From Deltaproteobacteria bacterium (lineage in GTDB: Bacteria > Myxococcota > Myxococcia > Myxococcales > Anaeromyxobacteraceae), in assembly GCA_016214955.1 (NCBI GenBank), contig JACRMN010000013.1, positions 1-64,000 of the forward strand: 64,000 nucleotides of DNA. Reading direction: 5' to 3'. The notes under the pieces were generated by a model. That model searched no databases and was not told where the DNA came from. It saw only the letters and a list, made by a program, of their open reading frames with translations. Shown one piece after another: positions 4,621 to 59,747 of this stretch. Position 1 is the stretch's first letter; each line of letters opens with the position of its first letter. Made by a program: the position numbers and the translations under genes.

Positions 4621-5583
4621 CTAGTTGCCGCCGCCGCTGCCGCCGCTGCCGCCCCCGTGCGCCTTGCAGGTGCCGTCGGAGACGTCGAGCTCCATGCCGT
4701 CGGGGCAGGTGCCGTTCACGGGGGGAGTGCCACCGGTGCCGCCCCCGTGCGCCTTGCAGGTGCCGTCGGAGACGTCGAGCTCCATACCGTCGGGGCAGGT
4801 GCCGTTCACGGGCGGCGTGCCGCCGGTGCCGCCGCCGTGCGCCTTGCAGGTGCCGTCGGAGACGTCGAGCTCCATGCCGTCGGGGCAGGTGCCGTTCACG
4901 GGCGGGGTGCCGCCGGTGCTGCCGCCGGGCGCCTTGCAGGTGCCGTCGGAGACGTCGAGCTCCATGCCGTCGGGGCAGGCGCCGTTCACGGGCGGGGTGC
5001 CGCCGGTGCTGCCGCCGTGCGGCTTGCAGAGGCCGTCGTCGAGCTCCATGCCGGGGTCGCAGGTGCCGTCGGCGTTGGGCGCCACGCCGGCGCTGTCGTC
5101 GCCGTGGGGCTTGCAGACGCCGTCGTCGCACTCCAGGCCGGCGCCGCAGGCCTCGGCGCACACCGCAGCGTGGCGCAGCTCGAAGGTGCCGCCGTGCTTC
5201 ACCGCCGCCTCGCGGGCGTGCTCCACCTCGTTGTGGCGCTCGGTCTCGATGCCGTGCTCGACCTCGTTCTCCACCTCGACGAGCTTGTGGTGGGCCGAGT
5301 CCTCGGTCTTCATCGAGATGCGGGCGGCGAGCACGAGGGGCGCCGGCAGCTCCACCTCGATGCGCGCCTTGGCGCCGTTGCGCGGCTCGACCTCGCGGAG
5401 GTGGACCTCGACCTCGCGGGAGAGGGCGCCGGCGGGGATGTCGACCCGGGCGCCGCTGGCGGTCTTGAGGCTGCCGCCGGCGGCGCCGATGCGGGTCGAG
5501 GAGGTGGCCTCGCGGGAGCCGCCGCAGGCGGCGAGGGCGATGGCGAAGAGGGCGGAGAGGGTCGTCTGGGTCGTGGTCGTCAT
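4621..5583 (-). CDS. Repeat-containing lipoprotein with ZU5-like N-terminus
   Basis: 320 residues. The signal peptide ends in a lipobox (LAAC, Cys20), so the mature protein should be lipid-anchored. Residues about 30-60 carry a ZU5-like pattern (GAAGGSL..., DIPAGALS). A charged His/Glu-rich middle follows, then five 30-residue C-terminal repeats of the type PPVNGTCPDGMELDVSDGTCKA. Each repeat has two cysteines, suggesting a disulfide loop. The ATG at 5583 is chosen because AGGAGG lies about ten bases upstream and the lipobox is then correctly placed; an upstream start adds ten residues. Function unknown. The repeats are nearly identical at the DNA level. Confidence 0.8.
   Translation of the reverse strand: MTTTTQTTLSALFAIALAACGGSREATSSTRIGAAGGSLKTASGARVDIPAGALSREVEVHLREVEPRNGAKARIEVELPAPLVLAARISMKTEDSAHHKLVEVENEVEHGIETERHNEVEHAREAAVKHGGTFELRHAAVCAEACGAGLECDDGVCKPHGDDSAGVAPNADGTCDPGMELDDGLCKPHGGSTGGTPPVNGACPDGMELDVSDGTCKAPGGSTGGTPPVNGTCPDGMELDVSDGTCKAHGGGTGGTPPVNGTCPDGMELDVSDGTCKAHGGGTGGTPPVNGTCPDGMELDVSDGTCKAHGGGSGGSGGGN
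4661..5050 (-). repeat. Five 90-bp in-frame tandem repeats
   Basis: The same sequence block starts at 4661, 4751, 4841, 4931 and 5021, a strict 90-base period (30 codons). The last copy, at the N-terminal side of the array, is shortened. Near-identity including silent positions shows recent expansion. Confidence 0.9.
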
Positions 5584-5605
5584 GTCGGTGTTGCCTCCTG
5601 CCCTC

Positions 5606-5635
5606 CCTGACACCCGCCGCCGGCGCCGTGAGACA
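5606..5635 (-). promoter_or_regulatory. ECF-type promoter-like element A
   Basis: On the minus strand TGTCTCA (5635-5629), 16 bases, then TGTC (5612-5609). It lies 52 bases before the lipoprotein ATG. The same layout precedes the next two genes (elements B and C). It resembles the TGTCACA / CGTC consensus known for ECF41-group sigma factors; this copy is the weakest of the three. Confidence 0.35.
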
Positions 5636-5742: not shown

Positions 5743-6051
5743 CTAGGCCAGCTTGTGCCCCGGCCGCTCGCCCTTCTCCGGCTTCTGCGCTTCGGGGGTG
5801 AGGTCGTCCGCGCCGTGCTTCGCCAGCTTGTGCCCCGGCCGCTCGCCCTTCTCCGGCTTCTGCGCCTCGGGGGTGAGGTCGTCCGCGCCGTGCTTCGCCA
5901 GCTTGTGCCCCGGCCGCTCGCCCTTCTCCGGCTTCTGCACCTCGGGGGTGAGGTCGTCCGCGCCGTGCTTCGCCTTCGCCGTCCCCGGAACCACGAGCGC
6001 CATCGCAGCCGCGACCACCGTTGCACCGAACCACTTGTCGAACCGAGTCAT
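5743..6051 (-). CDS. Secreted three-repeat protein
   Basis: 102 residues: a signal peptide (MTRFDKWFGATVVAAAMAL, cleavage likely after GTAKA) followed by three 25-residue repeats of KHGADDLTPE(V/A)QKPEKGERPGHKLA type, reaching the C-terminus. The mature part is almost wholly repeat, hydrophilic and probably disordered. The ATG at 6051 is preferred because AAGGAC precedes it and the signal peptide then starts normally; an in-frame ATG at 6093 would add 14 residues. No family was recognised. It sits between two other small minus-strand genes sharing a promoter-like motif. Confidence 0.75.
   Translation of the reverse strand: MTRFDKWFGATVVAAAMALVVPGTAKAKHGADDLTPEVQKPEKGERPGHKLAKHGADDLTPEAQKPEKGERPGHKLAKHGADDLTPEAQKPEKGERPGHKLA
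5747..5971 (-). repeat. Three 75-bp in-frame tandem repeats
   Basis: Copies at 5747-5821, 5822-5896 and 5897-5971. Neighbouring copies differ by a single base each, so the array is very young or kept uniform by slippage or recombination. Confidence 0.95.
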
Positions 6052-6752: not shown

Positions 6753-8003
6753 TCAGCGGCCGGAGACGGTGACCACCGTGCCCGCAGCCACGGGCGCCGC
6801 AGAGCCGGTGCCCAGCTGGGCGGAGGCGTTGGCCCCCCAGCACTGCGCGCTGCCGTCGGGGAACAGGGAGCAGGTGTGGTCCCGGCCCGCGGCCAGAGTG
6901 AAGCTCCCGGCGCCCGGGCTGGGGACGGTCGAGAGCTCCCCGGCGTTCACCACCGCCTGGCCGAGCTGCCCCAGGCCGTTGTCGCCGAAGCACTTCGGAC
7001 CCTCGGCGGCCTTGTGGACACAGACGTGGGCGCGGCCCGGAGCGATCTCGACGGCGTCGAAGTTCACGCGGGTCACCTGCGCCGGCGCCGCGCCGTTGCC
7101 CCAGCAGTGGAGGGCCCTTGTCCCGGAGCCCTCGGCGGCGCAGGCCTGGTCGTACCCGGCGCCGATGGCGGCCATGCCCGAGGCGAACACCACGCGGCTC
7201 TGGGTGGCCGCGGTGCCGCCACCGAGCTGTCCCTGGGCGTTGTCGCCCCAGCAGGTGACCGCGCCTCCCGAGTCGAGCGCGCAGGCGTGGCTGGATCCGG
7301 TGGCGATGGCGACGAAGGCGCTGCCGGTGGGCGCGGCGGTCATGGCCCTGCCCGTGCCCCAGCACTGGATGGCGCCCGAGGAGAGCAGCGCGCAGGCGTG
7401 GCTCGCCCCGACGGCCAGCGCGGTGGCGGTGGTGACGGCCGGGCTCGGCGAGGCCACCGATCCCCAGCAGGTCACCGCGCCGCCGATGACGGCGCAGGTG
7501 CTGGTGCCGCCGGCGGCGAGGAGCGTGGCGCCGCTCGCCAGATCGAAGGGGAGGAGCACGTTGCCGCTCGTGCCGGCGCCGGTCACCTGCCCGGCTCCGT
7601 TGGCGCCCCAGCACTTCACCAGGCCCCCGGCGAGGGCGCAGGCGTGGGCGTCGCCCGCGGCCACGGCCGCGGCGCGGCTGCAAGCGGTCCCGGTGCGCAG
7701 CCAGCCGGCGCTGCAGTCGAGGTGGCAGGCCCAGTCCCCGGCAGCGGCCGAGGACTCCAGGCATCGCTGGAGGCCGTTGGCGGGATCCGCGGGGCAGGCG
7801 TCGGTGCAGCTGGCGCAGTGGGCGACGTCGTGTTCCGCGCAGACCGGCCCCTGGCCCAGGTCGCACGACATCTGGGCGGGGAGGCACTGGCTGCCTGTCA
7901 CCGGCAGGGCCGGCAGCCCCTCCGACGTGTAGAGCGTGCCGCCGCAGCCGCCGAGGGACGCGGCAGCCAGGGTGGCGAGAGCGAGGCCGAGGAGGGAGCG
8001 CAT
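6753..8003 (-). CDS. RCC1-repeat lipoprotein
   Basis: 416 residues. The signal peptide ends in lipobox LGGC (Cys20). A cysteine-rich segment (about 35-90) resembles small disulfide-bonded domains of myxobacterial surface proteins. Seven RCC1/alpha-tubulin-suppressor-like repeats follow, each with a paired pattern such as HACAL...CWG; the two cysteines per repeat suggest one disulfide per blade and a complete seven-blade propeller. Probably displayed outside the cytoplasm as a binding or sensor module. It is the last gene of the sigma operon, three bases after the caspase-like gene. The partner is unknown. Confidence 0.85.
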   Translation of the reverse strand: MRSLLGLALATLAAASLGGCGGTLYTSEGLPALPVTGSQCLPAQMSCDLGQGPVCAEHDVAHCASCTDACPADPANGLQRCLESSAAAGDWACHLDCSAGWLRTGTACSRAAAVAAGDAHACALAGGLVKCWGANGAGQVTGAGTSGNVLLPFDLASGATLLAAGGTSTCAVIGGAVTCWGSVASPSPAVTTATALAVGASHACALLSSGAIQCWGTGRAMTAAPTGSAFVAIATGSSHACALDSGGAVTCWGDNAQGQLGGGTAATQSRVVFASGMAAIGAGYDQACAAEGSGTRALHCWGNGAAPAQVTRVNFDAVEIAPGRAHVCVHKAAEGPKCFGDNGLGQLGQAVVNAGELSTVPSPGAGSFTLAAGRDHTCSLFPDGSAQCWGANASAQLGTGSAAPVAAGTVVTVSGR

Positions 8004-8006
8004 CGC

Positions 8007-9518
8007 TCAGTACCCGTAGAGGAGGACGAGGGCAGCGCCGGCGGCGGGCCGGACCTGCTGCTTGCCGTCGAGCTTCAGCGAGCGGCCGCCGCCGAAGAGG
8101 TCCACTGCGCCGCGGAAGCTCTTCCAGGCGGGCAGGGAGTAGCGCAGCGTGGCGCCGAAGAGCAGGTCGGCGGTCTCGAAGTGGCGGCCGTCGCGCCAGG
8201 CCTGGGTGTTCCAGCCGCCGCCCACGGTGAGGCCGCCCTCGAGGAGCTGGCGGGTGCCGGAGAGCGGGTAGAGCGCCGAGGCCGAGGCGCCCACGCGGGT
8301 GAAGGAGTAGCTGCGCGAGAGGCCGCCCGAGCCGTCGGTGACGTCGGCGAAGGCGTAGTCCATGCGGAGGAGGAGCCCCAGAGGCCCGAGCTCGTGGCGC
8401 ACGCCGCCGCCGAAGGACGGGGCCACGCTGCCTCCCGGCAGCCCGACGAGCTGGACGCCGCCGGACAGGAACCACTCGGTGTCCATGGGGCCGCCCTTGG
8501 CGCGCGCCATGGCGTAGCGGGTCGGCTCCAGCCGCGGGAGCGTGCGCACCTCGCCGCGCGCCAGGGCCAGCGAGCCCGTGGCCCGGCCCTCGGGCGAGCG
8601 GCGCTCGATGGCGTAGGGCCCGGCCGGCAGCCCCAGCGAGAGCTGGCTCTGGCCCGCCGGCACCTCGGCCACCAGGCCGCGCGGCCCCTTGAGCACGTAG
8701 AGCGTGCCCGGGTCGACCGGGACGAGGAGCCTGGCCTCGGCGCGGCGCAGGTCGGCCAGCACCACGTCGCCGCGGCCCGCCATGCGGAAGTCGTAGGTGG
8801 GGTGCTGCGGCCCGACGTGGGTGGCGCTGGTGGCGGCCACGGTGGCCGAGGAGGTGTAGCGGAAGGCCTCGGCCAGCGTCACGAGCCCGTCGCCGTCGGC
8901 GTCTGCGGCGCCGCGCAGGCCAACCTCGAGGTGGTGGGTGAAGAAGCTGCCGCCCAGGATCACCGATTCCTGGGCCGACTCGCCCACCGCCGTGGAGGCA
9001 ATGAAGGCGGTGCCTTTCACCTCGTCCTTGGGCAGGGGGAAGTTGACCGTCTCGGAGGGCTTGGCCCCCTTCACCTGGGTGAGGTTGCCCGCCTCGCAGG
9101 CGTCGACGATGACCACCTTGGCCTCGGCGACGCTCTTGCCCACCAGCTCCTTGAGCTCGTCGTAGGAGACGATGTCGGTGCCCAGCTCCAGGCCGCCGGC
9201 CCCGGCGTGGCCCGAGTAGTAGACCACCAGCAGCGCCCGCTCCCCGGTGGCCCGCGCCTTCTCGACGCTCCGCTCGATGCGGGCCATGGCCGCCCGGAAG
9301 TCGGCCGGCTTGCCGCCCCGGAGCACCAGCACGTTGTCCTCGGTGAAGTCGCCCAGCTCCGCCAGCGCGCGCTGGAAGCGCTCGGCGTCCTTCTCGGCGA
9401 ACTGGAGCCGGGCGCGGCCGGCGCCGCCGATGTTGTTGCCCAGCACCACCGCGAACCGGCTGGCCGCCTGGGCGGCCGCGGGCAGGGCGAGGGCGAGGAG
9501 CAGCGCGAGGGACCGCAT
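8007..9518 (-). CDS. Secreted caspase-like (C14) protease with barrel-like C-terminus
   Basis: 503 residues. A signal peptide (1-19, ending AQAA) sends it out of the cytoplasm. Residues 20-250 form a caspase/metacaspase-type peptidase with the dyad His104 (YYSGHAG) and Cys141 (VDACEAG). A canonical EF-hand-like loop follows at 206-217 (DADGDGLVTLAE), so calcium dependence is plausible. The C-terminal 170 residues show short alternating hydrophobic stretches and end in LLYGY, which looks like an outer-membrane beta-barrel or similar beta domain. The gene follows the anti-sigma gene by 33 bases. Substrate unknown; self-cleavage or the neighbouring anti-sigma protein are the obvious candidates. 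Confidence 0.85.
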   Translation of the reverse strand: MRSLALLLALALPAAAQAASRFAVVLGNNIGGAGRARLQFAEKDAERFQRALAELGDFTEDNVLVLRGGKPADFRAAMARIERSVEKARATGERALLVVYYSGHAGAGGLELGTDIVSYDELKELVGKSVAEAKVVIVDACEAGNLTQVKGAKPSETVNFPLPKDEVKGTAFIASTAVGESAQESVILGGSFFTHHLEVGLRGAADADGDGLVTLAEAFRYTSSATVAATSATHVGPQHPTYDFRMAGRGDVVLADLRRAEARLLVPVDPGTLYVLKGPRGLVAEVPAGQSQLSLGLPAGPYAIERRSPEGRATGSLALARGEVRTLPRLEPTRYAMARAKGGPMDTEWFLSGGVQLVGLPGGSVAPSFGGGVRHELGPLGLLLRMDYAFADVTDGSGGLSRSYSFTRVGASASALYPLSGTRQLLEGGLTVGGGWNTQAWRDGRHFETADLLFGATLRYSLPAWKSFRGAVDLFGGGRSLKLDGKQQVRPAAGAALVLLYGY

Positions 9519-9551
9519 GGACTTCTCCGCGGGGCAGCGTGGCCTGGAAGC

Positions 9552-10304
9552 TTAGCGCTTTTCGAGGAGCACGCTCGCCTGGGCGGTCCCCTCGGGCAGG
9601 CCGAGGATCTCCCGGACGGAGCGCACCGCCGGCTCGCCCCGCGCGGTGGCCGCCTGCACCGCGCGCTCCAGCGCCGCGTAGTAGGTGGGCTGGGGCGTGC
9701 AGATGGCGTAGACCCGCTCGGGACCGGGCTTGCCGTCGAGCACCGCGCCGCCCGGGATCTCGTACTGCGTGGCCACCAGCACGCCGCCGTCGCCGGTGGT
9801 GGGGAAGAGGCGCGAGACCTGCCCGGAGGCGTCCACCGACACGATCCACAGGTGGCAGGGCTTGCGCGTCAGGTCCACGCGGAAGCGGATCTGCTCCGAG
9901 GCCGAGACCGGCTCCCCCTCGCTGGCGCAGTGGACGCCGGTGGCGCGGTTCACGAAGACCGAGAGGCCCAGGCCGCCGCGCCCCTTGATGCCGTCGTAGT
10001 CGGCGGGGAAGCCGTCGGAGGCGGGCTGCACCAGCAGGAACAGGGCGGCGGCTGCGGCCACCGCGGAGACGGGGGCGAAGAGCGGGATCCAGGAGAAGCG
10101 GCGGGCGCCCTTCTCGGCGGCCTGCTCCACCTTCTCCACCGTCGCCGGGAAGACGAACTGCAGGAACTCCTCGCCCTGGCGCTTCATCTCGGCGAGCCGG
10201 GTGCCGCACCGCTGGCAGCTCTCCACGTGGCTCTTCACGGCCGAGGCCGCGGGGTCGAGGAGGTGGCGCTCCAGGGCCAGCTCGGACGGGTGGGTGGCGT
10301 TCAT
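9552..10304 (-). CDS. Anti-sigma factor with zinc-finger and DUF4384-like domain
   Basis: 250 residues. The N-terminus carries a zf-HC2 type anti-sigma motif (HVESCQRC, about 26-33), one membrane segment near 75-95 (FAPVSAVAAAAALFLLV), and an outer part of about 150 residues resembling DUF4384, a domain often linked to caspase-like proteins. It should hold the adjacent ECF sigma at the membrane. The ATG at 10304 overlaps the sigma stop in an ATGA junction and has AGGAG upstream, so the pair is translationally coupled. The long open frame further upstream is a shadow of the sigma gene. Confidence 0.85.
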   Translation of the reverse strand: MNATHPSELALERHLLDPAASAVKSHVESCQRCGTRLAEMKRQGEEFLQFVFPATVEKVEQAAEKGARRFSWIPLFAPVSAVAAAAALFLLVQPASDGFPADYDGIKGRGGLGLSVFVNRATGVHCASEGEPVSASEQIRFRVDLTRKPCHLWIVSVDASGQVSRLFPTTGDGGVLVATQYEIPGGAVLDGKPGPERVYAICTPQPTYYAALERAVQAATARGEPAVRSVREILGLPEGTAQASVLLEKR

Positions 10305-10795
10305 GTCTCGCTCCTGATGATCATCTTCCTGGCGTTCTCGAGGAACCTGTCGAGCTTGCGGGCCACGGTGCGGCGCGAGACGCCGAGCATCTCGGCCACC
10401 TCCTCGTGCTCCAGCCCGTCGACGAGCACGCCGACGGCCACCGTCTGCGTGGTCTCGTCGAACTTCCCAAGCACCTGCTGCACCAGGTGGCGGTCGGGGT
10501 AGCTCTCGCGGGCCGGCCCGTCGGGGATCTCGAGCTCCGTCTTGGCGGTGTCCTCGCCGCGGCGGGTGGAGTTGCGGCGCAGGTTGAGGCAGTGGTTCAT
10601 GGCCACCCGGTAGAGCCAGGGCAGTACCGTCTCGCGATCCGAAAGCCGCTCCATGTCGCGCACCAGCTTCATGAACACTTCCTGCGTTGCATCCTTGGCC
10701 GCCTCCGGGTCGCGGAGGAGGCGCAGGCATCGGCGGTAGACCAGCGGGCCGTATTCTCTGTAAAGCGCTGCGGCACGCGATCGGCTCTCCTCCAA
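10301..10795 (-). CDS. ECF sigma factor of the caspase operon
   Basis: 164 residues from the TTG at 10795. Region 2 reads LRLLRDPEAAKDATQEVFMKLVRDM...LPWLYRVAMNHCLNLRR and region 4 HEEVAEMLGVSRRTVARKLDRFLENARK. The TTG has AAGGAG six bases before it; an alternative GTG at 10843 adds 16 residues but has no properly spaced ribosome site. The gene heads a four-gene operon with its anti-sigma factor, the caspase-like protease and the RCC1 lipoprotein. It lacks the C-terminal extension of ECF41 sigma factors, so it is not an obvious reader of the motif at 5.6-6.4 kb. Confidence 0.88.
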   Translation of the reverse strand: MEESRSRAAALYREYGPLVYRRCLRLLRDPEAAKDATQEVFMKLVRDMERLSDRETVLPWLYRVAMNHCLNLRRNSTRRGEDTAKTELEIPDGPARESYPDRHLVQQVLGKFDETTQTVAVGVLVDGLEHEEVAEMLGVSRRTVARKLDRFLENARKMIIRSET

Positions 10796-11152
10796 GACAG
10801 GCTCCTTGTCCCGATGACACCGGGACCATTCCGGGTGGGCCACCCTTCGGTACGGGCCGCCCGAAAAAGTACCGTTCCGCGCGAAACCCTGAAAGAAAAC
10901 GGCTTCCAGGGCGACCAGGCCCCAGTTGGGCTGGCGCGGCCACCGTGGCCAGCCGCGCCCCCCGCGCGCGGCCCCGGCTCGGGCCCGGAGCAGGTGCCCT
11001 GATTTCGGGCATCACCCTGCCTGGGTCGTAGGCAGCGCACGCGAATTTCCTTCAGGATCCGCGGCGGATCCGGGGTTCCTGCCCGGCATGCAGCATGCTA
11101 TGCAGGCGGCCGACTAACGCCCCCGCACCACCCACGGAGACAGGAAAGAACG
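10796..11152. other. Divergent region, ECF sigma / glnA
   Basis: A gap of about 357 bases between the divergent sigma operon and glnA. The stretch 10861-10915 is clearly richer in A/T than its surroundings and may be the sigma-operon promoter. The glnA side holds the sigma-54-type element at 11084-11099. No gene was seen. Confidence 0.5.
11084..11099 (+). promoter_or_regulatory. Sigma-54-type promoter of glnA
   Basis: CGGCATGCAGCATGCT matches TGGCACRN4TTGCW at GG (11085-11086) and GC (11097-11098) with the required ten bases between, plus C4, A5, R7, T13 and W16. It starts about 70 bases before the glnA ATG. NtrC, encoded in this window, would be the activator. No clear NtrC site was identified by eye. 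Confidence 0.55.
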
Positions 11153-47871: not shown

Positions 47872-49098
47872 GTGCGCCTGCTGGTGGTGAGCCAGTACTT
47901 CTGGCCCGAGAACTTCCGCGTCAACGAGCTGGTGTCCGAGCTGGTCGCGCGGGGGCACGAGGTCACGGTGCTCACGGGGGTGCCCAACTACCCCGAGGGG
48001 AAGGTCTTCGAGGACTACCGGCGCGACCCCGAGAGCTTCTCGAGCTACTCCGGCGCCGAGGTCCTGAGGGTCCCGCTGCGCCCGCGAGGCCAGGGGAAGC
48101 TGCAGCTCGTCCGCAATTACTGGAGTTTCGTCTTCTGGGGCACGCTCCTGGGGCCCTGGAAGCTGCGCGGAAAGCCATTCGACGCCATCATCTTCTTCGA
48201 GATCTCGCCCATCACCTCCGTCCTCCCGGCGCTCCTCCTGCGCCGCCTCAAGCAAGCCCCGCTTCTGCTCTGGGTTCTCGATCTCTGGCCTGAGACCCTG
48301 GCTGCAGTGGGCATCGTGCGGTCGCCCACCATCCTGCGCCTGATCGGTCGACTCGTCTCTTTCATCTACCGGCGGTGCGACCTGATCCTGGCGCAGTCGC
48401 GTGGCTTCGTCCCCAACATCGAGCGCTGGTCCGGCGACTCCAGCCGCATCCGCTACTTCCCGCAGTGGGCGGAAGCGATCTTCGACAGGGATCTCGCCGA
48501 CGTCGAGTGCGCACCGGAGGTTGCTCCCTACCGCGACACGTTCAACGTCATGTTCGCGGGCAACATCGGTGAAGCGCAGGACTTTCCCGCGATTCTCGAC
48601 GCGGCCGAGTGCCTGCGCGAGCACAACGACATCCGCTGGCTCGTCGTCGGGGACGGGCGCGCCGCGCAGTGGGTTCGAGCCCAGATCGAGGCACGGGCCC
48701 TCCAGAAACGCGTCGTCATGCTCGGCAGGTATCCCCTCGAGCGCATGCCCGCCATCTTCCGAGGCGCGAATGCGCTGTTGGTATCGCTTAGGCCCGATCC
48801 GATCTTCGCGATGACAATCCCTGGCAAGGTGCAGAGCTACCTGGCCGCGGGGTTGCCCCTCCTAGGCATGGTTGACGGTGAGGGCGCAGGGGTGATCCAG
48901 GAGTCCGGTGCGGGTCTGGTCTGCGGGGCTGGCGACGGGTTCGGCCTGGCTCGCCGCGTTCGACAACTCGCGGATGCCACAGCAGAGGAGAGGGCCGCCA
49001 TGGGTCAACGAGGAAAGCAGTATGCGCGGAGGGAGTTTGACCGGGCAACGCTCGTCGGAAGATTGGAGGGATGGCTAGGAGGGCCACCCCGCCCCTGA
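47872..49098 (+). CDS. wbuB: GT4 glycosyltransferase, WbuB-like (L-FucNAc transferase)
   Basis: 408 residues. N-terminal VSQYFWPENFRVNELVSELVARGHEV and VLTGVPNYPEGK are the hallmark of the WbuB group of L-fucosamine transferases. The C-terminal GT-B half carries PAIFRGANALLVSLRP and the nucleotide-binding end. Cytoplasmic face of the membrane. Its place straight after fnlABC supports transfer of L-FucNAc. The GTG at 47872 is the start. Codon use drifts toward lower G+C in the second half, the left edge of the low-G+C core. Confidence 0.88.
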   Translation: MRLLVVSQYFWPENFRVNELVSELVARGHEVTVLTGVPNYPEGKVFEDYRRDPESFSSYSGAEVLRVPLRPRGQGKLQLVRNYWSFVFWGTLLGPWKLRGKPFDAIIFFEISPITSVLPALLLRRLKQAPLLLWVLDLWPETLAAVGIVRSPTILRLIGRLVSFIYRRCDLILAQSRGFVPNIERWSGDSSRIRYFPQWAEAIFDRDLADVECAPEVAPYRDTFNVMFAGNIGEAQDFPAILDAAECLREHNDIRWLVVGDGRAAQWVRAQIEARALQKRVVMLGRYPLERMPAIFRGANALLVSLRPDPIFAMTIPGKVQSYLAAGLPLLGMVDGEGAGVIQESGAGLVCGAGDGFGLARRVRQLADATAEERAAMGQRGKQYARREFDRATLVGRLEGWLGGPPRP

Positions 49099-49168
49099 AT
49101 TCGACATCGGAGGGTGGCGACCTGGTACCCCATGGGGGTGGCGCTGCAGAAGCGGAGGGTGATCACTC

Positions 49169-50320
49169 TCAGGACCGTCGCGAACGGAAGTCACCTCGAT
49201 AGAGGCGCTCGAGCTTGAGGCGCTCGACGTCCCAATTCATCTGCTCCGCCGCGCGTGCGGATGCGCTCCTGAACCTTTCACGGAGCGCCCGATCGCTGAC
49301 CACCAGCTGCAGCTTCTCGGCAAGCGAGTCTACGTCGCCGGGGCGGCAGGTTAGGCCTACGCCGTGCTCGGCGACGACCCGCGCCATCTCCGGCAGATCC
49401 GAGACGACTAGGGCGAGGTGGCCCTGGATGTACTCGAACAGCTTGTTCGGAAGCGCCCACATGTGGTTCAGGAGGCCTCCGGCCAGCGCGTGCACGCCAA
49501 TGTCCGCGTCCGAAGTATATGCAGGGAGCTCCTCCTTCGGGACGAACGGTAGGAAGTGAACACGATCGGACAGGTCCGCCAACTCGGCGCGGATGACCTC
49601 GACGGCGGGCCCCGATCCAAGGAACACGAGTGCCACATCGCCACGGATCTTGCGAAATGCCCGGGCAAGCAGCAGCGGTGACTCGCCTGTCACAACACCC
49701 TGGAACAGCACCACGGTCCTCCCGTCGGGGATGTTGGCGGCCTTGCGAAGCTTGCGCTCGACGGCGGTCGACCATCGCTCCGGGACGTTCCTTACGACCA
49801 CGGGCTCTAGTCCGATTCTTTCGGCAAGCGCGCCCGCTATGCTGTCAGAGACCGTGATGCACGCGTCGGCACGCCGGGCGAAGAACCACTCGCCGGAGGC
49901 CTGTAACTTGGCGAGCCATCGTGGGGTGTGCTGATTCCTGGTCGGATCCGCCCATAGTTCGTGCGCGTCGTACAGCAGCCGCGCATGGGTTACCGCCGCG
50001 ATGCTGCCGCCGATCGGGAGGCCGTCCGCGTCGTTCGCGTGGATCACATCCGGACGGAGGCGGATCCCGGCGACCAGCATCCGCGCGTACAGTTCCAGAT
50101 ACTTCACCACTTGAACGGGCTTGCTCTTCGACCACGGGCGACTCACCAGGTTGAACCTGCGGATGGCGACCCCCGACTCGACTCCATCACTTGGCAGCCC
50201 GGGCCCGGACATCGCGAAGACCGTCACGTCGAAGCCAAGGTCGCGCCCGCACTCCGCCGCCCGTCGGACGCGGTTGTCGTTCGCGTAGTCGTTGAGGACG
50301 ATGTGTAGGAGACGGGGCAC
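49169..50320 (-). CDS. GT4 glycosyltransferase
   Basis: 383 residues, GT-B fold. N-terminal LLHIVLNDYANDNRVRRAAE and LLYDAHELWADPTRN; C-terminal LPNKLFEYIQGHLALVVSDLPEM with the usual acidic and Gly-rich nucleotide site. Donor and acceptor unknown. Third gene of the minus-strand unit flippase - AsnB - transferase; its ATG is only three bases from the AsnB stop. Lower G+C than the flanking locus. Confidence 0.85.
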   Translation of the reverse strand: MPRLLHIVLNDYANDNRVRRAAECGRDLGFDVTVFAMSGPGLPSDGVESGVAIRRFNLVSRPWSKSKPVQVVKYLELYARMLVAGIRLRPDVIHANDADGLPIGGSIAAVTHARLLYDAHELWADPTRNQHTPRWLAKLQASGEWFFARRADACITVSDSIAGALAERIGLEPVVVRNVPERWSTAVERKLRKAANIPDGRTVVLFQGVVTGESPLLLARAFRKIRGDVALVFLGSGPAVEVIRAELADLSDRVHFLPFVPKEELPAYTSDADIGVHALAGGLLNHMWALPNKLFEYIQGHLALVVSDLPEMARVVAEHGVGLTCRPGDVDSLAEKLQLVVSDRALRERFRSASARAAEQMNWDVERLKLERLYRGDFRSRRS

Positions 50321-50323
50321 AGG

Positions 50324-52216
50324 CTATCCTCTTACCATTGCGTGATACCAGATCGTGTAGTTGAGGAGCCGCCAGGTATGCGGCGAAGATAGCCCGTCGC
50401 TCGCGCAACTCGCTCGCGCAACCCGCGCGTCGAAGAATGGGATGCTCGAGATCTGATCGAGCGCCCGCTCCACGAGGTCGCCGCTGCCTTTGAGCCAAGC
50501 ACCCTCGGGCGTGGCAAACCCGATCTTGTCACGGCGATCGAGTATCGCATCCGGCACGATACCGCGCATCGCTCGCCGGAACACGTGCTTGGTTGTTCCG
50601 TCCTGCGCAACGAGGTAGTGCTCTGGCAGGGATAGGAGCGCTTCCGCGAAGTCGGTCGTAAGGAATGGCACGCGGCTCTCAATGGAGTAGGCCATCGAGT
50701 TTCTGTCCTCATAGTGCAGGAGCGAAAGAAGGCCCACCGTCACACCCTCAACGAGGTCCGCGTGGAGATAGCGCCTCTTCCGCACTGCGACCCTCGGAGG
50801 TGCTGAGCGCGCGCCTCGCTCACGGAACCACTCCTCCTTGAGCCACGGGGGAGGGGCGTTTCGACCCGTCAGGCGCTCGACGACCGGCAGTGTCGACCAC
50901 GGCAACATGGAACGCACCGCACCGCGAACGAGCTGCGACCGCTGCAGACGCCGCTCGCGTCCACCGGAGAGAAAGCGCATCGCACCGAGCCAGTTGCCAC
51001 CAGCGAGGAGCGACGCCAGACGCGCTCCCTGGTATCGGATGTACCCGCCCATCAACTCGTCTGCGCCTTGACCATCGAGCATGACCTTGACGCCAGCTTC
51101 GCGCGCTTCCCGAAAGACGCAATGTTGCGCGTAGATGCTGGTCGTCGAGAATGGTTCGCCCTGCGCTTCGATCAGCCGGTGGACATCGCGAATGAGGTCG
51201 TCAGCGCTCGCCGTCACGGGATGGGCAAGGGCACCCACGTGCTTGTTGACAATCGCCACCCATCGTGACTCATCGAGCCGCGGGTCGTCTGCCAAGTAGC
51301 TGAAGGTATGAATCTCCCTGTCCGGCTCCAAGTGTCTAATCGCGCAGACGATTGCGGAGGAATCGATCCCGCCGGACAACGCAGAGCCCAAGGGCACGTC
51401 GCTTCGCAGGTGGAGCGATACGTTGCGAAGGAATCGGTCGCGGATCTCTGCGGCCGCGTCGTCGAAGGATATGCGGCGCTCCTGGATCCTCGCTGGGTCC
51501 CAGTAGCGCTTTCGACTCTGGCTAATCGACTCTTCCGCAAGACCCAACCGCATCCACGTCGCGGGCTCCACCTGCTTCACCCCAGACAGCATCGTCGTCG
51601 AGCCGTTGTCGGCGACCCCGTGACGAAGGTACAGCCAAGCCCCCGAAGCATCCGGCGACCGGTCAATACCGGGCAGCGTGACCAGCGCGCTGAGCTCGGA
51701 CCCGAACGCGATCCCGTGCTGCCAGTCGCAGACGTAGAGCGGCTTGATGCCGAATGGATCCCTTGCCAACAGTACGGAGTTGTCGCGCGTATCGAGTACC
51801 GCCAACGCGAACATCCCTACGAAACGCCGAAGCGCCACATCGGGGCCCCAGGACGCTATCGCCTCGAGCGCGACCTCGGTGTCGGTCGAGGTCCTGAAAC
51901 GCAGCCCTTCGGTCTCGAGTGTCCTGCGGAGTTCAACGTAGTTGTAGATCTCTCCGTTGAACACTATCCACCGACTGCCGTCCGCTGACCGCATGGGCTG
52001 TCGACCGGCAGACGACAGATCAATGATCGCCAACCGCCTGTGCCCCAGGGCGACGCGACACGGGGAAGGCTCGGCCGGGTCGTGCAAGGGAGTACAGCCG
52101 GGGGACCAGTACATGATTCCCGCGTCGTCTGGACCTCGGTGCTCGATAGCGCCGAGCGAGCGTGCCAGATTCACCATCGCAGGGCGCTTCGTCACAGCGC
52201 CGACGATTCCGCACAT
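50324..52216 (-). CDS. asnB: Asparagine synthase-type amidotransferase
   Basis: 630 residues. N-terminal Ntn glutaminase with nucleophile Cys2 (MCGIVGAVT), HRGPDD and LGHRRLAIIDLS; C-terminal synthetase with the PP-loop ALSGGIDSSAIV and the DGQGADELMGGY segment. It makes carboxamides from carboxylates with glutamine and ATP. Located one base from a flippase gene within a glycan locus, it most likely amidates a uronic acid carboxyl rather than aspartate, as suggested for WbpS-type proteins. That role is an inference from context. Lower G+C than the flanks. Confidence 0.9.
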   Translation of the reverse strand: MCGIVGAVTKRPAMVNLARSLGAIEHRGPDDAGIMYWSPGCTPLHDPAEPSPCRVALGHRRLAIIDLSSAGRQPMRSADGSRWIVFNGEIYNYVELRRTLETEGLRFRTSTDTEVALEAIASWGPDVALRRFVGMFALAVLDTRDNSVLLARDPFGIKPLYVCDWQHGIAFGSELSALVTLPGIDRSPDASGAWLYLRHGVADNGSTTMLSGVKQVEPATWMRLGLAEESISQSRKRYWDPARIQERRISFDDAAAEIRDRFLRNVSLHLRSDVPLGSALSGGIDSSAIVCAIRHLEPDREIHTFSYLADDPRLDESRWVAIVNKHVGALAHPVTASADDLIRDVHRLIEAQGEPFSTTSIYAQHCVFREAREAGVKVMLDGQGADELMGGYIRYQGARLASLLAGGNWLGAMRFLSGGRERRLQRSQLVRGAVRSMLPWSTLPVVERLTGRNAPPPWLKEEWFRERGARSAPPRVAVRKRRYLHADLVEGVTVGLLSLLHYEDRNSMAYSIESRVPFLTTDFAEALLSLPEHYLVAQDGTTKHVFRRAMRGIVPDAILDRRDKIGFATPEGAWLKGSGDLVERALDQISSIPFFDARVARASCASDGLSSPHTWRLLNYTIWYHAMVRG

Positions 52217-52217
52217 C

Positions 52218-53450
52218 CTACAGTTCCCTCACGGCTGAATACAGGACACCAGAGTACACGATGTTGCTCGCCGCAGCTGCAATAGAGAAGGCGACGACTG
52301 TGTGCTGAATCCCTTGCCCGCGCGTGACATATGCGGCGACGACTGCGCCCGCAACGGATGAGAGGTCGTAGATCCACTTCAGCTGTGGACGCTGCAGGAT
52401 GCCAACCGCGGTGCTGAGCGGGCTGACCACGAGCGATGATGCAGCCCAGATCGATAGGGCCGGGACGAGGTGCCCTGCTGCGCCCCACTGCTGGCCGAAT
52501 AGTCGCCCGAAGATGGGTGGAGCGACAACGCTCAGCGGAACGTATAGCGCGCACGAGCATGCGACGAGGGTCGCCAGCATCTTGCCGAAGAACAGCCGTC
52601 CGGCCTTCGCATCTCCGGCACGCACGAGGTACGCAAACCTCCCACGGAACACCTCGGCCAGCGCGGAGCCGAGATGGGTGCTGGGGAGGGTGGTCACGCG
52701 GTAGGCTATCGCGTACAATCCCGCCGGTTCAGCTCCCAATCGGCCCGCAATCGTGAACACAGGAAGTATTGCGCCGATCTGGTCAAACACCTGGGACGGG
52801 ACCTCAAATACCGGAAAGCGCTTCCACTGCGCCACGGTCACGAGGACCTCGGAGAGCCTGCTGCGTGACGCGTTCGCGACGAGTTCCCTGATCCTGGAAT
52901 CGGCTAGCTTGTACGTCGATGCCCACGCCGAGATGACCTCGGCAAGAAGGAGGGCGGTGATCCCGCTTCCGAGTGCTCCGCCAACGAGTCGCGGGATCAC
53001 GTTTGAGAGGTTGCGGACTGTCGCCACCGTTGAGATTGATTGATAGTCTTCCCGCCTGAGACGCGACGCACGGAATACGAGCGCGAACCCGCCAGCGATC
53101 ACGATAGGTGGCACCGCAAAGACCGCCCACCAAGGGAGGATGTGAATCCCGAAGAGCCGCAGCTTCACCAGGATCGCGTACGCCACACTCGTGAGTCCCG
53201 CCACGACTACGGTGGCCCAGACGTTCACCGCTTCGAGCCTAGACAGATCCCGTCGTTCTCGGACGATGAGCAAGGGACTGTCGAGGCGGAGCGTCGCAAC
53301 GGCCAGCGGGACCGATAGGGACGAGATGAACACCGAGATCGCACCGAGCTGCTCAGCGCCAAACAGCCTCGTAACGACGGGCATGGTGGCAAGCGTGATC
53401 GCCTGCGCCACGATCGAACCGGACACCAGTCTCGCGACGGCGCGTCTCAT
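52218..53450 (-). CDS. wzx: O-antigen/polysaccharide flippase (Wzx-like)
   Basis: 410 residues with about twelve membrane helices and the N-terminal pattern SGSIVAQAITLATMPVVTRLFGAEQLG, typical of Wzx/polysaccharide-biosynthesis flippases. The lysR-like LRLDSPLLIVRE motif after the second helix fits this family. It would move undecaprenyl-linked repeat units across the inner membrane. First gene of the minus-strand unit leading to asnB and a transferase. Lower G+C suggests import with its neighbours. Confidence 0.88.
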   Translation of the reverse strand: MRRAVARLVSGSIVAQAITLATMPVVTRLFGAEQLGAISVFISSLSVPLAVATLRLDSPLLIVRERRDLSRLEAVNVWATVVVAGLTSVAYAILVKLRLFGIHILPWWAVFAVPPIVIAGGFALVFRASRLRREDYQSISTVATVRNLSNVIPRLVGGALGSGITALLLAEVISAWASTYKLADSRIRELVANASRSRLSEVLVTVAQWKRFPVFEVPSQVFDQIGAILPVFTIAGRLGAEPAGLYAIAYRVTTLPSTHLGSALAEVFRGRFAYLVRAGDAKAGRLFFGKMLATLVACSCALYVPLSVVAPPIFGRLFGQQWGAAGHLVPALSIWAASSLVVSPLSTAVGILQRPQLKWIYDLSSVAGAVVAAYVTRGQGIQHTVVAFSIAAAASNIVYSGVLYSAVREL

Positions 53451-53738
53451 TCTGGGGGCCGGTGCCGGGGTGCCGTGTTCAGAGTCTGTGAGTGTTACAC
53501 TGCCAAGAAGGGCTCACATTTCCCCGCGCGTGGCTCCCAGCGGCACCGAATCTGCCTGCGCGGGCGCATTCGCCGCTCGCGCCGCCCAGCGTCGCGCCGT
53601 ATCATGCAGCACCGTCTCGCCGGTGGCCTGTTGGGTTGGGTCAGTCTCAGGTGTCGCCCGCAACGGGCCGCCGATCTGGTGCCGTGGTGTCGGGATTCCC
53701 TACACGAGTAGAGGTGTTTGCGCAAGACTCGAGTTCCT
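53451..53738. promoter_or_regulatory. Divergent promoter region with palindrome
   Basis: 288 bases between the divergent flippase and glycosyltransferase genes. It holds AGTGTTACACT (53491-53501), a palindrome about a central T, some 40 bases before the flippase start. No gene was seen in the rest. Confidence 0.4.
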
Positions 53739-54878
53739 ATGAACGTTCTCTTCGTTGCACCGCTGCCGGAACCGACTACCGGCCAGTCGCTCGCGTCCAG
53801 GGTGCTTCTCGACGATCTCGCCAAGTGCCACTCCGTAGCGGTGGTCAACCTTTCCCAGCATGGCCTCCGCCCTGGGATCCGCTCATGGTCTCGCATCGGG
53901 CAGGTGTTGCGGATTGCGTGGCGGGTCTTCCGCGGGATGAGATCTGCTGACGTGGTGTACGTCACGATTTCCGAGTCCATCGCAGGAAACTGCAAGGACT
54001 TGCTGCTGTATGCGCTATGTGGGCGGATGCTTCAGCGTGTCGTCGTTCATCTGCACGGTGGTGCAGGCATGAGACTACTGATGGCGAAGGGTACGCTTAC
54101 GCGGTGGATCAATACCCTCTTTCTCGGCCGCATCGGCGGAGTGATCGTCCTCGGGAAGCGCCACGTCCCGATCTTCGAGGGCGTCGTGGCAGCAGACAGG
54201 CTTCACATCGTGCCCAACTTTGCAGAGGACGACCTGTTCGTGACGACACAGGACATCGACAAGAAGTTCAGCGCGCCATCACCACTCCGCATTCTCTTCC
54301 TTAGCAACTTGCTGGTCGGCAAGGGCCACCGCGAGCTACTGGAGGCGTTCCTGCGGCTCGGATCTGAAGCGAGGCGCTTGATACGCTTGGACTTCGCTGG
54401 CAGTTTCGATACCGCCGAGGCGCGCATCGACTTCGTCGATCGGATAGGCCGAGTCCCTGAGGTCACTTACCACGGTCCGGTGAGCGGGGAGCGCAAGCGA
54501 CTGCTCCTCCGAGAAGCGCACGTCTTCTGCCTTCCAACGTACTATCCCTACGAGGGGCAGCCAATCAGCATCCTGGAGGCGTACGCGTCCGGGTGTGCTG
54601 TGATAACCACGGACCATAGCGGCATATTCGACGTCTTCACACCGGAAGTGAACGGCTATGCGGTCGAGAAGAAGTCCATCGATTCGCTTGTGATGGCACT
54701 CGAGAGGGCGGTAGCTGCCCCTGCAGGACTGCGCGCGTTCGCAACTGCCAATCACGCCATCGCTCTCAAGCAGTACCGGAGCAACGCCTATACACGTAGC
54801 CTGCTTCAGGTGCTTGAGACAACCTGGGCTGCTTCGAGAGCCACGGACGGGTCTCGTGGCGAGCGGCGCAGAGTCTGA
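53739..54878 (+). CDS. GT4 glycosyltransferase
   Basis: 379 residues. MNVLFVAPLPEPTTGQS at the N-terminus, VVHLHGGAGMR, and the C-terminal PYEGQPISILEAYASG motif with the two glutamates of GT4 enzymes. Sugar specificity unknown. The ATG at 53739 begins directly with the first strand; a TTG seven codons upstream is less likely. First gene of a plus-strand unit with a second transferase and a polymerase-like gene. Clearly lower G+C than the flanks. Confidence 0.88.
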   Translation: MNVLFVAPLPEPTTGQSLASRVLLDDLAKCHSVAVVNLSQHGLRPGIRSWSRIGQVLRIAWRVFRGMRSADVVYVTISESIAGNCKDLLLYALCGRMLQRVVVHLHGGAGMRLLMAKGTLTRWINTLFLGRIGGVIVLGKRHVPIFEGVVAADRLHIVPNFAEDDLFVTTQDIDKKFSAPSPLRILFLSNLLVGKGHRELLEAFLRLGSEARRLIRLDFAGSFDTAEARIDFVDRIGRVPEVTYHGPVSGERKRLLLREAHVFCLPTYYPYEGQPISILEAYASGCAVITTDHSGIFDVFTPEVNGYAVEKKSIDSLVMALERAVAAPAGLRAFATANHAIALKQYRSNAYTRSLLQVLETTWAASRATDGSRGERRRV

Positions 54879-54899
54879 GTCTGCGGACAAAGTGTCTCG

Positions 54900-56099
54900 A
54901 TGAAGATCCTAATGCTCTGTGACTTCTTCGGCGAAGGCCTCCAATACCAGGAGAACCTTCTTGCGAAGTACTACGTCAAGCATGGACACGCCGTATCGGT
55001 GGTCACGTCGCTGATCGAGTCGGTGTTCGAGTACGCCAACGACACCTATAGGAGACCATCGGGGGGGCCGCGCGAATCGTGCGTGAACGGGATTCGCATC
55101 CGCAGACTGCCCTACAGAACGGACTTTCTGAAGCGTGTTAGGACGTTCGCGCCGCTTGACGATTACCTGGAGTCCGAAGCGCCCGACCTGATCTACGTCC
55201 ACGACATCATGCTGAACCTCCCCGACGCCGTTCGATACGTGAGGCGACACCCGAACGCGAAACTCATTCTCGACTATCATGCGGACTACAGCAACTCGGG
55301 ACGGAACTGGGCCTCACTGCGAGTCCTCCATGGCATCATCCGAAAGCGCGCACTCGATCGAGCGCGTCCCCACCTCGCTGGCCTGTTTCCGATCACGCCG
55401 CCGAGTGCGAGATTCTTGCATGAGGTGTATCGGGTTCCGTACGAGGAGATGGAACTCTTGCCGCTCGGCACAGATCTCGACCTGTGTCGAGAAGTGGAGC
55501 TATCCGACGCTCGGACGAGACTGCGCGCCCAGCACGGGGTCGGTGAGGACGGCTTCGTCATCATCACGGGCGGCAAGCTGGCACCCAGGAAGCGGACTGA
55601 AATGCTCATCGAAGCGTTTCACAACCTTGGCGATGCTAACGTTTGGCTCGTTGTCGTTGGTGCCGCCGAGGGCGATGCTAAGTACGATGACCTCTTGAGG
55701 CGCACCGCGCGTGGATCCCCGCGCGTGATCTTCACAGGCTGGCTCGATACACGATCCGTGTGCGACTACTTCGCGATGGCGGATGTCGCCGTATTTCCTG
55801 GGAGCCAGTCCATTCTGTGGCAGCAGGCAATCGGCATGGGCAAACCCCTCGTGATCGCAGAACCGATGGCGCGATCGGGGGGCGATCAGGATGTCTCGTA
55901 CCTGAATCGCTGTGGGAACATTCTCGTGTCCGAGGACCCAGATACGCGTGTTGAGTGGCTCGCCAAGACAATCTCGCGACTCATGCACGATCGCGACCTG
56001 TGCTCGCGGATGAGCATGGGCGCGCGTAGTGTCGCCTCCGAGATGCTCGATTGGAATGTGACAATCGCCAAGACCTTGCAGTGCTGCCGAACGCCCTGA
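54900..56099 (+). CDS. Glycosyltransferase, GT-B fold
   Basis: 399 residues. LMLCDFFGEGLQYQENLLAKYYVKHGH N-terminal region (split across the first strand and helix), then VIITGGKLAPRKRTEMLIEAF in the donor domain and a weak GT4-type end (QQAIGMGKPLVIAEPMARSGG). Probably adds one sugar of the repeat unit. A 60-base sample at 54961 has 33 G+C, far below the flanks. The polymerase-like gene overlaps its stop by one base (TGATG). Confidence 0.8.
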   Translation: MKILMLCDFFGEGLQYQENLLAKYYVKHGHAVSVVTSLIESVFEYANDTYRRPSGGPRESCVNGIRIRRLPYRTDFLKRVRTFAPLDDYLESEAPDLIYVHDIMLNLPDAVRYVRRHPNAKLILDYHADYSNSGRNWASLRVLHGIIRKRALDRARPHLAGLFPITPPSARFLHEVYRVPYEEMELLPLGTDLDLCREVELSDARTRLRAQHGVGEDGFVIITGGKLAPRKRTEMLIEAFHNLGDANVWLVVVGAAEGDAKYDDLLRRTARGSPRVIFTGWLDTRSVCDYFAMADVAVFPGSQSILWQQAIGMGKPLVIAEPMARSGGDQDVSYLNRCGNILVSEDPDTRVEWLAKTISRLMHDRDLCSRMSMGARSVASEMLDWNVTIAKTLQCCRTP

Positions 56100-57454
56100 T
56101 GACCGGCTCGTCCGCGAGCACAGTGCGCAAGCCCACACCGGCTGGAACGCGGCGTCCCCACGTTGTCGTCGTCGGAGCGTTCCTCGCACTCTACGCCGGT
56201 GTGACAGCGTTGTTGATGGAAGTCCCTGTCGGCTTGGCTGTTCTTGATGCTCCGCAGTTCGAGACTGCTCGATTCTTGGTCGGGGGGCTCATCGCCGCTC
56301 TGGGAGCCTTCTCACTGAGCCTTCAGGCGACGAGCGTTGTTCTGCCGAGCACGGTCTTCCTGGCGTTCCAGTGCGTGTTTGTGCACGTTCCCAGCGTCGC
56401 GCTGTGTGCGGTGCACCCGAGCCTCCCACTAGCGTCGACGTTCATGACCTCGTTGGCGCTCAACGTTGTCGGATACCTCTCGGGAAACCGGGTCCAAGCG
56501 CCGGCGCTCAGAGTGCCGCGCCTTGTCGCTGCAGTCTGCGCCGCTCCAGTCTTCTTGTGGCTCGCATACGCATCCTTCGTCTTCCTCAAGACGCTCCTCT
56601 CCGGCTCCTTCTCGCTCGAGTCCGTCCTCGACCTGGACGTACTCTATGACTTCCGAGAGAAGGTGTTCTCGAGCTTCTCTGGGCGGGACCTTACGGCACT
56701 CTCCGCGCTGGGCTATTTCGTGTTTCCGCTCTTGGCCGTGGAATGCGCCGCGCGGCGGTCTTACGTCGGAGTGCTTATTGTCTTTTGCATGGTGATGGCT
56801 CTGTACAGCACGACCGGCGCCAAGGCGTATGTCGCGGTGCCGTTCCTGTCGCTTGCGGTCTTCCGCCTGGCACGGCGAGGCGAGTCGCACCGGTTCGTAC
56901 TGGGGTTCGTTTCGCTCGTCGCGGCCGCCGTGTTGGCTGCCCTGGTTCTTGGGGTGGTTCTCGACTCCCCTTGGCCGCTTGCGCTTGCCCTGAGAGGTCT
57001 CGTCACGCCTGGCGAGAGTCACATCATCTACTTCGACTACTTCCGAGAGCTCCGCCGCCTCTCCATTTTCGACTTGTTTCCGTCTGGCCTGCCAGAGTTT
57101 GGGAACTTGTCGGTCTCGGAAGTCGTCCACCACTACGTGTACGGAGCTGAGATCGGGGATGGACAGGGCACCAACGCGGGGATCTTCGGAACAGCCTACG
57201 CGCTGTACGGAGTACTCGGGGTTGCCGTCTACACCGTCATTGCGGCGGTCGTCCTGTCCGTTCTCGACAGGTTCGGAGCAAGGCATACGCGCTCGGGATT
57301 GGCGCTGTCCTCAATCCCATCGCTATTTCTTCTCACGAACGTGAGCCTCACGTCGGCATTCGTATACTACGGTCTCGGGTTCGCACTGGTTCTGGCAGTC
57401 TGCTGGGAGGCCCTCTTTCGCCCTTCCCTGGGGCAGCCGTCGCTCTATCATTAA
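56099..57454 (+). CDS. O-antigen polymerase-like membrane protein (Wzy candidate)
   Basis: 451 residues with about eleven hydrophobic segments and one larger soluble loop (about 300-360: RGLVTPGESHIIYFDYFREL, GDGQGTNAGIFGTAYALYG). Such layouts with a big periplasmic loop are typical of Wzy/oligosaccharide-repeat polymerases, whose sequences hardly resemble each other. It follows two glycosyltransferase genes and is the only polymerase candidate in the locus. The ATG at 56099 overlaps the preceding stop. Confidence 0.65.
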   Translation: MTGSSASTVRKPTPAGTRRPHVVVVGAFLALYAGVTALLMEVPVGLAVLDAPQFETARFLVGGLIAALGAFSLSLQATSVVLPSTVFLAFQCVFVHVPSVALCAVHPSLPLASTFMTSLALNVVGYLSGNRVQAPALRVPRLVAAVCAAPVFLWLAYASFVFLKTLLSGSFSLESVLDLDVLYDFREKVFSSFSGRDLTALSALGYFVFPLLAVECAARRSYVGVLIVFCMVMALYSTTGAKAYVAVPFLSLAVFRLARRGESHRFVLGFVSLVAAAVLAALVLGVVLDSPWPLALALRGLVTPGESHIIYFDYFRELRRLSIFDLFPSGLPEFGNLSVSEVVHHYVYGAEIGDGQGTNAGIFGTAYALYGVLGVAVYTVIAAVVLSVLDRFGARHTRSGLALSSIPSLFLLTNVSLTSAFVYYGLGFALVLAVCWEALFRPSLGQPSLYH

Positions 57455-57595
57455 GGCAGTCCTCCGGAGAGCCGGAGACCGCGCGAGGTCGCGGAGCACG
57501 TCGTCGTACTTGCCGTGCACGGCTCAGGGCTGGGGCATGTGCAATGGAGCAATTCGGCCATGTGCGTTTGCCCCGAATGGGGCACTCCAGGAACG
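57455..57595. terminator. Hairpins between convergent genes
   Basis: CTCCGG-AGAG-CCGGAG (57462-57477) lies just past the polymerase-like stop. A second small stem, CCGCG/CGCGG, starts at about 57479. The rest of this gap before the convergent methyltransferase gene holds nothing recognised. Confidence 0.4.
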
Positions 57596-58429: not shown

Positions 58430-58618
58430 AGGGAGAGGCTACCGCACGTTACGGTGGGATTGCCTAGGTGGCTCTCGGATTGTTGGCGGGAATCGTACCA
58501 TGGTGTGTTGGGAGTGCGACCCCGTCGCTAGGGCCAGAGCCTAGCCAACACTCCCCAAGACGCAGCGCCTCGGGGCCTACTCGCGCTTGGCCCGCCGGCG
58601 GAACGGCCCGCTACCCCG

Positions 58619-59740: not shown

Positions 59741-59747
59741 GCTCTCC

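Follow-up and report, generated by a model that had tools for sequence, protein, structure and literature searches.

The locus described here lies in a window of 64,000 nucleotides (positions 1 to 64,000 of contig JACRMN010000013.1, assembly GCA_016214955.1) from a member of the Anaeromyxobacteraceae (Myxococcota) whose genome, G000, comprises 5.3 Mb in 30 contigs. Four minus-strand genes, at the positions given in a preliminary description of this DNA (10301-10843, 9552-10304, 8007-9518 and 6753-8003), encode an extracytoplasmic function (ECF) sigma factor, a membrane anti-sigma factor, an exported caspase-family protease and an RCC1-propeller lipoprotein. The genes are as tightly spaced as had been stated, with an ATGA overlap followed by gaps of 33 and 3 bases. 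The first product is clearly a sigma factor (TIGR02937 E 2e-22, Sigma70_r2 E 2.5e-16), and it contains only regions 2 and 4, as is typical of the ECF class, with a weaker match to region 4 (E 2e-5). Its true start is likelier to be the TTG at 10796 than the GTG at 10843, given the AAGGAG found 6 bases before the TTG.

Protein architecture

The anti-sigma factor (250 aa; 9552..10304, minus strand) is assigned on the basis of its family profile, a PF14326 match and an AlphaFold2 (AF2) model with a mean pLDDT of 88. The model comprises a zinc anti-sigma domain, a transmembrane helix at residues 77-92, an unstructured linker at residues 93-111 (pLDDT about 51) and a DUF4384 beta domain beginning at residue 112. 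The zinc ligands H26-x3-C30-x2-C33 (10206..10229) are preserved in 136-137 of 156 caspase-linked anti-sigma factors, and the combination of an H-x3-C-x2-C domain with one subsequent transmembrane helix is that of the ZAS/zf-HC2 membrane anti-sigma factors, in agreement with the initial identification of a zinc-finger membrane protein. A zf-HC2 match is found in 16 of 47 family members, and the window protein on its own falls short of PF13490; the family profile matches the solved anti-sigma factors RslA (3hug), ChrR (2q1z), DdvA (8rlz) and RsiW (5wuq). The predicted periplasmic DUF4384 domain (PF14326 E 5e-8 over residues 137-206; 9687..9896) is a feature absent from the preliminary description. 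A Foldseek search for its fold returned no match below 1e-3, the best being RhoGDI-like beta-sandwiches at E 0.003 or worse.

The caspase (503 aa; 8007..9518, minus strand) begins with a signal peptide and matches PF00656 (E 1.4e-9). Its catalytic residues H104 (9207-9209) and C141, the latter within D139-A140-C141 (9096..9104), are invariant in 80 caspases, in agreement with the secreted caspase-like protease with intact His104 and Cys141 that had been described. D139, the acidic residue expected in the S1 pocket, is present in 70 of the 80. The caspase fold and His-Cys dyad place the protein among the C14 caspases and metacaspases. Comparison of the AF2 model (mean pLDDT 90.7) with metacaspase-4 by VIA-align gave a Z of 22.0 and an rmsd of 2.8 over 209 aligned residues, and Foldseek matched the protease part to metacaspase-9 and caspase-8; a sequence search of the PDB yielded weak metacaspase-4 matches only. 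The EACC1-associated caspase model NF047832 scores 59.8 bits, against an NCBIfam cut-off of 140 bits. A loop at residues 206-217 (DADGDGLVTLAE; 8868..8903) has well-preserved acidic positions (D206 in 80/80, D210 in 78/80, E217 in 79/80) and, by its resemblance to an EF-hand, is a possible Ca2+ site.

Beyond the protease, the AF2 model contains a small beta domain and an eight-stranded antiparallel barrel (residues 347-502; 8013..8480), which is likewise a feature missing from the preliminary description. The strands are 11-19 residues long, the C-terminal residue is Tyr, and the architecture is that of the OmpA/OmpX-type barrels. Foldseek matches to this region include OmpW, OmpX, OmpA, Ail and NspA at E about 1e-5 (OmpX 1qj9, E 1.1e-5, TMt 0.64). 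The caspase is predicted to be exported and anchored in the outer membrane via its barrel.

Co-conservation and the K-G sites

Caspase loci were gathered with iterated profiles, and gene order was counted only at loci uncut by contig ends. The order sigma factor, anti-sigma factor, caspase on one strand was observed at 52 of 56 such loci, and this synteny far exceeds chance. The window's genome encodes five caspases, each within an operon of this type. Within the G000 family, seven of eight full-length caspase relatives with at least 55% identity either have the whole four-gene order or miss only the sigma pair, and the remoter caspases checked there also have a sigma gene directly upstream. 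Relatives of the anti-sigma factor, at E 1e-15, are found in 156 of 195 Myxococcota genomes. Co-conservation, which the preliminary description had looked for across all four genes, extends to these three, with the RCC1 gene outside the conserved core.

The periplasmic juxtamembrane linker of the anti-sigma factor, disordered in the AF2 model, contains the dipeptide K107-G108 (9981..9986, minus strand). Among the 156 caspase-linked anti-sigma factors, position 108 is always G and position 107 is K in 154 and R in 2, making these the best-conserved residues of the protein, followed by the next residue at 91% and the zinc ligands at 87-88%. A positive charge outside the transmembrane helix contradicts the positive-inside rule, and no folding reason for its preservation would be expected where the linker is disordered.

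A natural comparison is provided by anti-sigma factors without a caspase in the neighbourhood, which were taken as orphans; those of L159, whose contig has a same-clade caspase at a distance of 6 kb, and L140, with an adjoining caspase on the opposite strand, were scored as linked. In the seven caspase-less members of the window clade, K107 is replaced by A, Q, R or T or falls in a gap. All seven retain H26, C30, C33, P184 and G194, and nearly all other strongly conserved residues are retained as well. Overall, a basic residue is present at position 107 in 156/156 caspase-linked and 6/13 orphan sequences (Fisher 2.5e-9, phylogeny ignored). On a quick tree with moderate support, parsimony requires at least four losses of the basic residue, all on orphan branches and none on caspase-linked ones; orphan branches account for 5.6% of tree length, and under a uniform-rate model such clustering has a p of about 1e-5. 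In these alignments, the K-G dipeptide of the linker tracks the presence of the caspase, and it is a candidate site-1 site for control by regulated intramembrane proteolysis (RIP).

Two further K-G dipeptides are found within the caspase itself. K150-G151 (9066..9071), a proposed self-activation site, opens a disordered loop past the catalytic Cys (pLDDT <50 at residues 151-162), the region where processing of caspases and type II metacaspases takes place (PMC5756287); it is present in 70/70 caspases with D139 and 0/10 without. K341-G342 (8493..8498), at which the protease is proposed to release itself from the barrel, is flanked by a helix at 334-340 and a strand at 347, and in the D139-type caspases the first position is K or R in 69/70 and the second G in 68/70. 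Non-animal C14 proteases cleave after Arg or Lys (PMC5756287; PMC6426788), the C14 family apart from caspases preferring these residues at P1 via an acidic pocket. In type II metacaspases, the p20-p10 linker is cut in a Ca2+-dependent manner (PMC5756287). The D139 preceding the catalytic Cys and the conserved K-G in the linkers are consistent with a similar basic P1 preference here.

The 10 of 80 caspases without D139, one of which is encoded in the window's genome, form a divergent clade (L018, L019, L020, L021, L022, L027, L028, L029, L032 and L005/L050). These have A139 in place of D, are without K150 or a consistent K341, and carry SSHG and A-x-C motifs in place of SGH and D-x-C. Classification of the L050/L005 caspase as catalytically dead was considered and dropped, as the alignment shows that H and C are present, with D139 changed to A.

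These patterns bear on two alternatives to cleavage of the anti-sigma factor by the caspase. The caspase could instead be an output, with the sigma/anti-sigma pair sensing stress via DUF4384 and driving the caspase and lipoprotein as effectors of envelope remodelling, predation or cell death, and with another protease cutting the anti-sigma factor. ECF factors commonly have targets adjoining the sigma gene, and a co-directional operon with the sigma gene first would suit this arrangement, as would the existence of orphan anti-sigma factors without a caspase. However, it leaves unexplained both the loss of K107 solely where the caspase is absent and the occurrence of the same K-G motif within the caspase, and it is considered unlikely. 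A second alternative is that K107-G108 is a docking or pseudosubstrate element, in which the linker Lys would occupy the S1 pocket of the caspase while DUF4384 inhibits the caspase or reads its state, and cleavage would not be the switch. Co-conservation fits binding as well as cutting, and 23 cyanobacterial orthocaspases carry a fused DUF4384 (PMC8283722), but the matching K-G dipeptides in the caspase linkers resemble processing sites and a disordered, membrane-near linker suits site-1 cleavage; docking appears quite improbable.

A possible caspase-driven envelope switch

The gene order, domains, likely topology, three K-G sites and association of K107 with the caspase, as read from sequence and predicted structure, can be combined in a model in which the caspase, on balance probably, cuts itself off the outer membrane and then serves as the site-1 protease on the anti-sigma factor. 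Myxobacteria would have several sigma/anti-sigma/caspase envelope switches working in parallel, of which this is one. In the resting state, the DUF4384 membrane anti-sigma factor would hold the ECF sigma factor while the barrel parks the caspase on the outer membrane. The signal may be a barrel that is not inserted, sensing by the barrel or the lipoprotein, or Ca2+ at the EF-hand-like loop; in response, the caspase would activate itself at K150-G151 and sever its barrel at K341-G342. An outer-membrane-anchored protease could hardly reach K107, and self-release at K341, or a role for the barrel as an assembly sensor, would make sense for that reason. The freed caspase would then cut the anti-sigma factor on the C-terminal side of K107, which lies about 15 residues beyond the inner membrane, and RseP-type site-2 proteolysis and cytoplasmic proteases would complete its breakdown, freeing the sigma factor to transcribe its regulon. 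The genome encodes RseP-like M50 proteases (PF02163 matches, best E 4e-69 in a 566-aa frame), and so possesses the site-2 intramembrane protease of RseA-type RIP, whose action on this anti-sigma factor is proposed. A more general version, in which a single K-G code serves self-activation, barrel release and site-1 cleavage in a trans-envelope switch present in up to about ten copies per myxobacterial genome and sensing through barrels and lipoproteins that are exchangeable, is tentative, and its probability is judged to be slightly under even.

Several observations weigh against this model. The anti-sigma factors of the divergent A139 clade nonetheless retain K-G, as do the orphans L141, L247/L255 and L265, which have no neighbouring caspase; in the orphan L237, K is retained but is followed by S instead of G. 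A stricter independent-pairs test on a smaller set did not reach significance, there being too few differing pairs. The anti-sigma factors of two loci (L086:6516-6845, minus strand; L108:4761-5060, plus strand) are cut down to about 80-100 aa and are without the transmembrane helix, K-G and DUF4384, though sigma factor and caspase remain. The ECF promoter consensus GGAAC-N15-19-CGT was detected upstream of the sigma gene at 1 of 91 loci, against 1.6 expected, which leaves sigma autoregulation unsupported. The initial suggestion that an outside protease controls the anti-sigma factor is supported as far as the co-conservation of the three genes and the tracking of the caspase by K-G are concerned, but every cleavage event, like the signal and the regulon, enters the model by inference.

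Retention of K-G in orphans could also indicate that it is the site for a different, general site-1 protease, the caspase-linked pattern then being a by-product of decaying orphan loci. At L141 (4391-8164), the sigma factor and K-G anti-sigma genes are followed, with no caspase, by genes for two secreted matrixin-like metalloproteases. However, the zinc ligands and DUF4384 core are not decaying in the window-clade orphans, and the four separate losses are confined to caspase-less lineages; a general protease is thus regarded as very unlikely.

If caspase-driven release of the sigma factor is correct, a caspase would stand at the heart of a pathway that senses the envelope. Bacterial caspase homologues have mostly been discussed in terms of cell death. 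One large set of them would gain a readout as well as a predicted substrate and scissile bond, through a link that the natural comparison supports. Such a pathway would give bacterial caspases a concrete signalling job, bring a class of cysteine proteases into the ECF site-1 proteases, and offer a reason why myxobacteria retain so many caspases and ECF sigma factors.

Related systems and neighbouring features

Sigma-70 genes were reported in metacaspase operons of Myxococcus, Anaeromyxobacter, Haliangium, Sorangium, Ralstonia and Fibrobacter by Asplund-Samuelsson et al. in 2012 (PMC3501461), and at the level of a sigma-70 gene and a metacaspase these very likely represent the same operon family. 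The accessible portion of that paper does not name the anti-sigma factor, DUF4384, the barrel, the K-G sites or a mechanism. No paper uniting a caspase or metacaspase with a DUF4384 anti-sigma factor, or describing the mechanism, was found in a search outside which most subscription papers fall. While sigma-metacaspase operons were already known, the fusion to a barrel, the linkage of K-G to the caspase together with the natural comparison, and the mechanism derived from them are new here. The 2012 paper also proposes a possible link to autolysis, and the operon might accordingly be a developmental cell-death module, in which myxobacterial metacaspases and sigma factors bring about programmed lysis during development. 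That idea was offered as a suggestion, and the protease is predicted to be exported and barrel-anchored; a cell-death role, which would be compatible with site-1 cleavage by the caspase, seems extremely unlikely.

The closest working analogue is the RseA/DegS/RseP envelope pathway, in which DegS senses misfolded outer-membrane proteins and cleaves RseA (PMC8103513). Both systems have a membrane anti-sigma factor acting on an ECF sigma factor, a periplasmic site-1 protease (here a predicted one) tied to the state of an outer-membrane protein, and RseP-like M50 proteases in the genome. Unlike in the RseA/DegS system, the protease is a caspase-family Cys protease encoded in the same operon and fused to a barrel, and the anti-sigma factor has DUF4384 and a fixed K-G site. 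The preliminary description drew its comparison with type III-E CRISPR (Craspase; Cas7-11-Csx29, Csx30 and CASP-sigma), a more distant system. The analogy holds for the logic, in that a caspase-clan protease cuts, or here would cut, a sigma inhibitor, but Csx29 is an RNA-activated cytoplasmic CHAT protease and Csx30 is soluble, whereas the window system has a C14 caspase with a barrel, is without CRISPR, includes no Cas gene among its four genes and gave no PADLOC match for the caspase. A role in defence was also rejected, as PADLOC gave no match except a weak one to the sigma factor that was limited to the helix-turn-helix.

ECF54 (in a CHAT/subtilase/carboxypeptidase context, PMC8999054) and EACC2-caspase-ECF (PMC8195603) likewise place ECF genes near caspase-superfamily genes. 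ECF54 is listed without an anti-sigma factor and EACC2 is a different domain, while the window system has a DUF4384 anti-sigma factor and a barrel-fused protease. The type II metacaspases-4 and -9 of Arabidopsis share the caspase fold, and have a basic P1 preference and, for most, Ca2+-induced linker cleavage, but they have neither a barrel nor a sigma pathway.

The accessory fourth gene (6753..8003, minus strand) does encode the seven-blade RCC1 lipoprotein initially described, with a lipobox (LGGC), seven C[WF]G repeats and a PF13540 match at E 2e-23. It is specific to the window's caspase clade. At 13 of the 15 barrel-clade loci it is the gene after the caspase, the remaining two encoding a beta-helix-like lipoprotein instead, and unrelated lipoproteins are found in other clades. 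A lipoprotein gene lies directly 3' of the caspase in at least 58 of 103 caspase loci. Those of L078, L080, L085, L087, L110 and other loci differ in their bodies (RCC1-propeller, beta-helix-like or of an about 320-aa type) but share a mature N-terminus resembling C-G-x-[ST]-[LFWY]-x-[DN], as if a common tag bore exchangeable domains. The RCC1 lipoprotein was dismissed as a caspase substrate, since it contains no K-G or R-G.

Scans for sigma-70 promoters and terminators gave nothing exceeding chance, and in some barrel-clade loci a GTGTCAC-like sequence close to the start was not regular enough to be accepted as a motif. Past the 3' end of the operon, also on the minus strand, positions 5743-6051 encode a predicted secreted 102-aa protein composed of a signal peptide plus three 25-aa repeats that are almost identical (75-bp period, 98% match) and each contain K-G; it was found in no other genome of the G000 family. 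In a lipoprotein-like gene at 4621-5613 (minus strand), a 90-bp repeat occurs in 4.5 copies (94% match) and encodes 30-aa units that contain Cys. Finally, the GC content falls to 62-65% at about 48000-60000, compared to about 74% elsewhere in the window, and this stretch is possibly an island.

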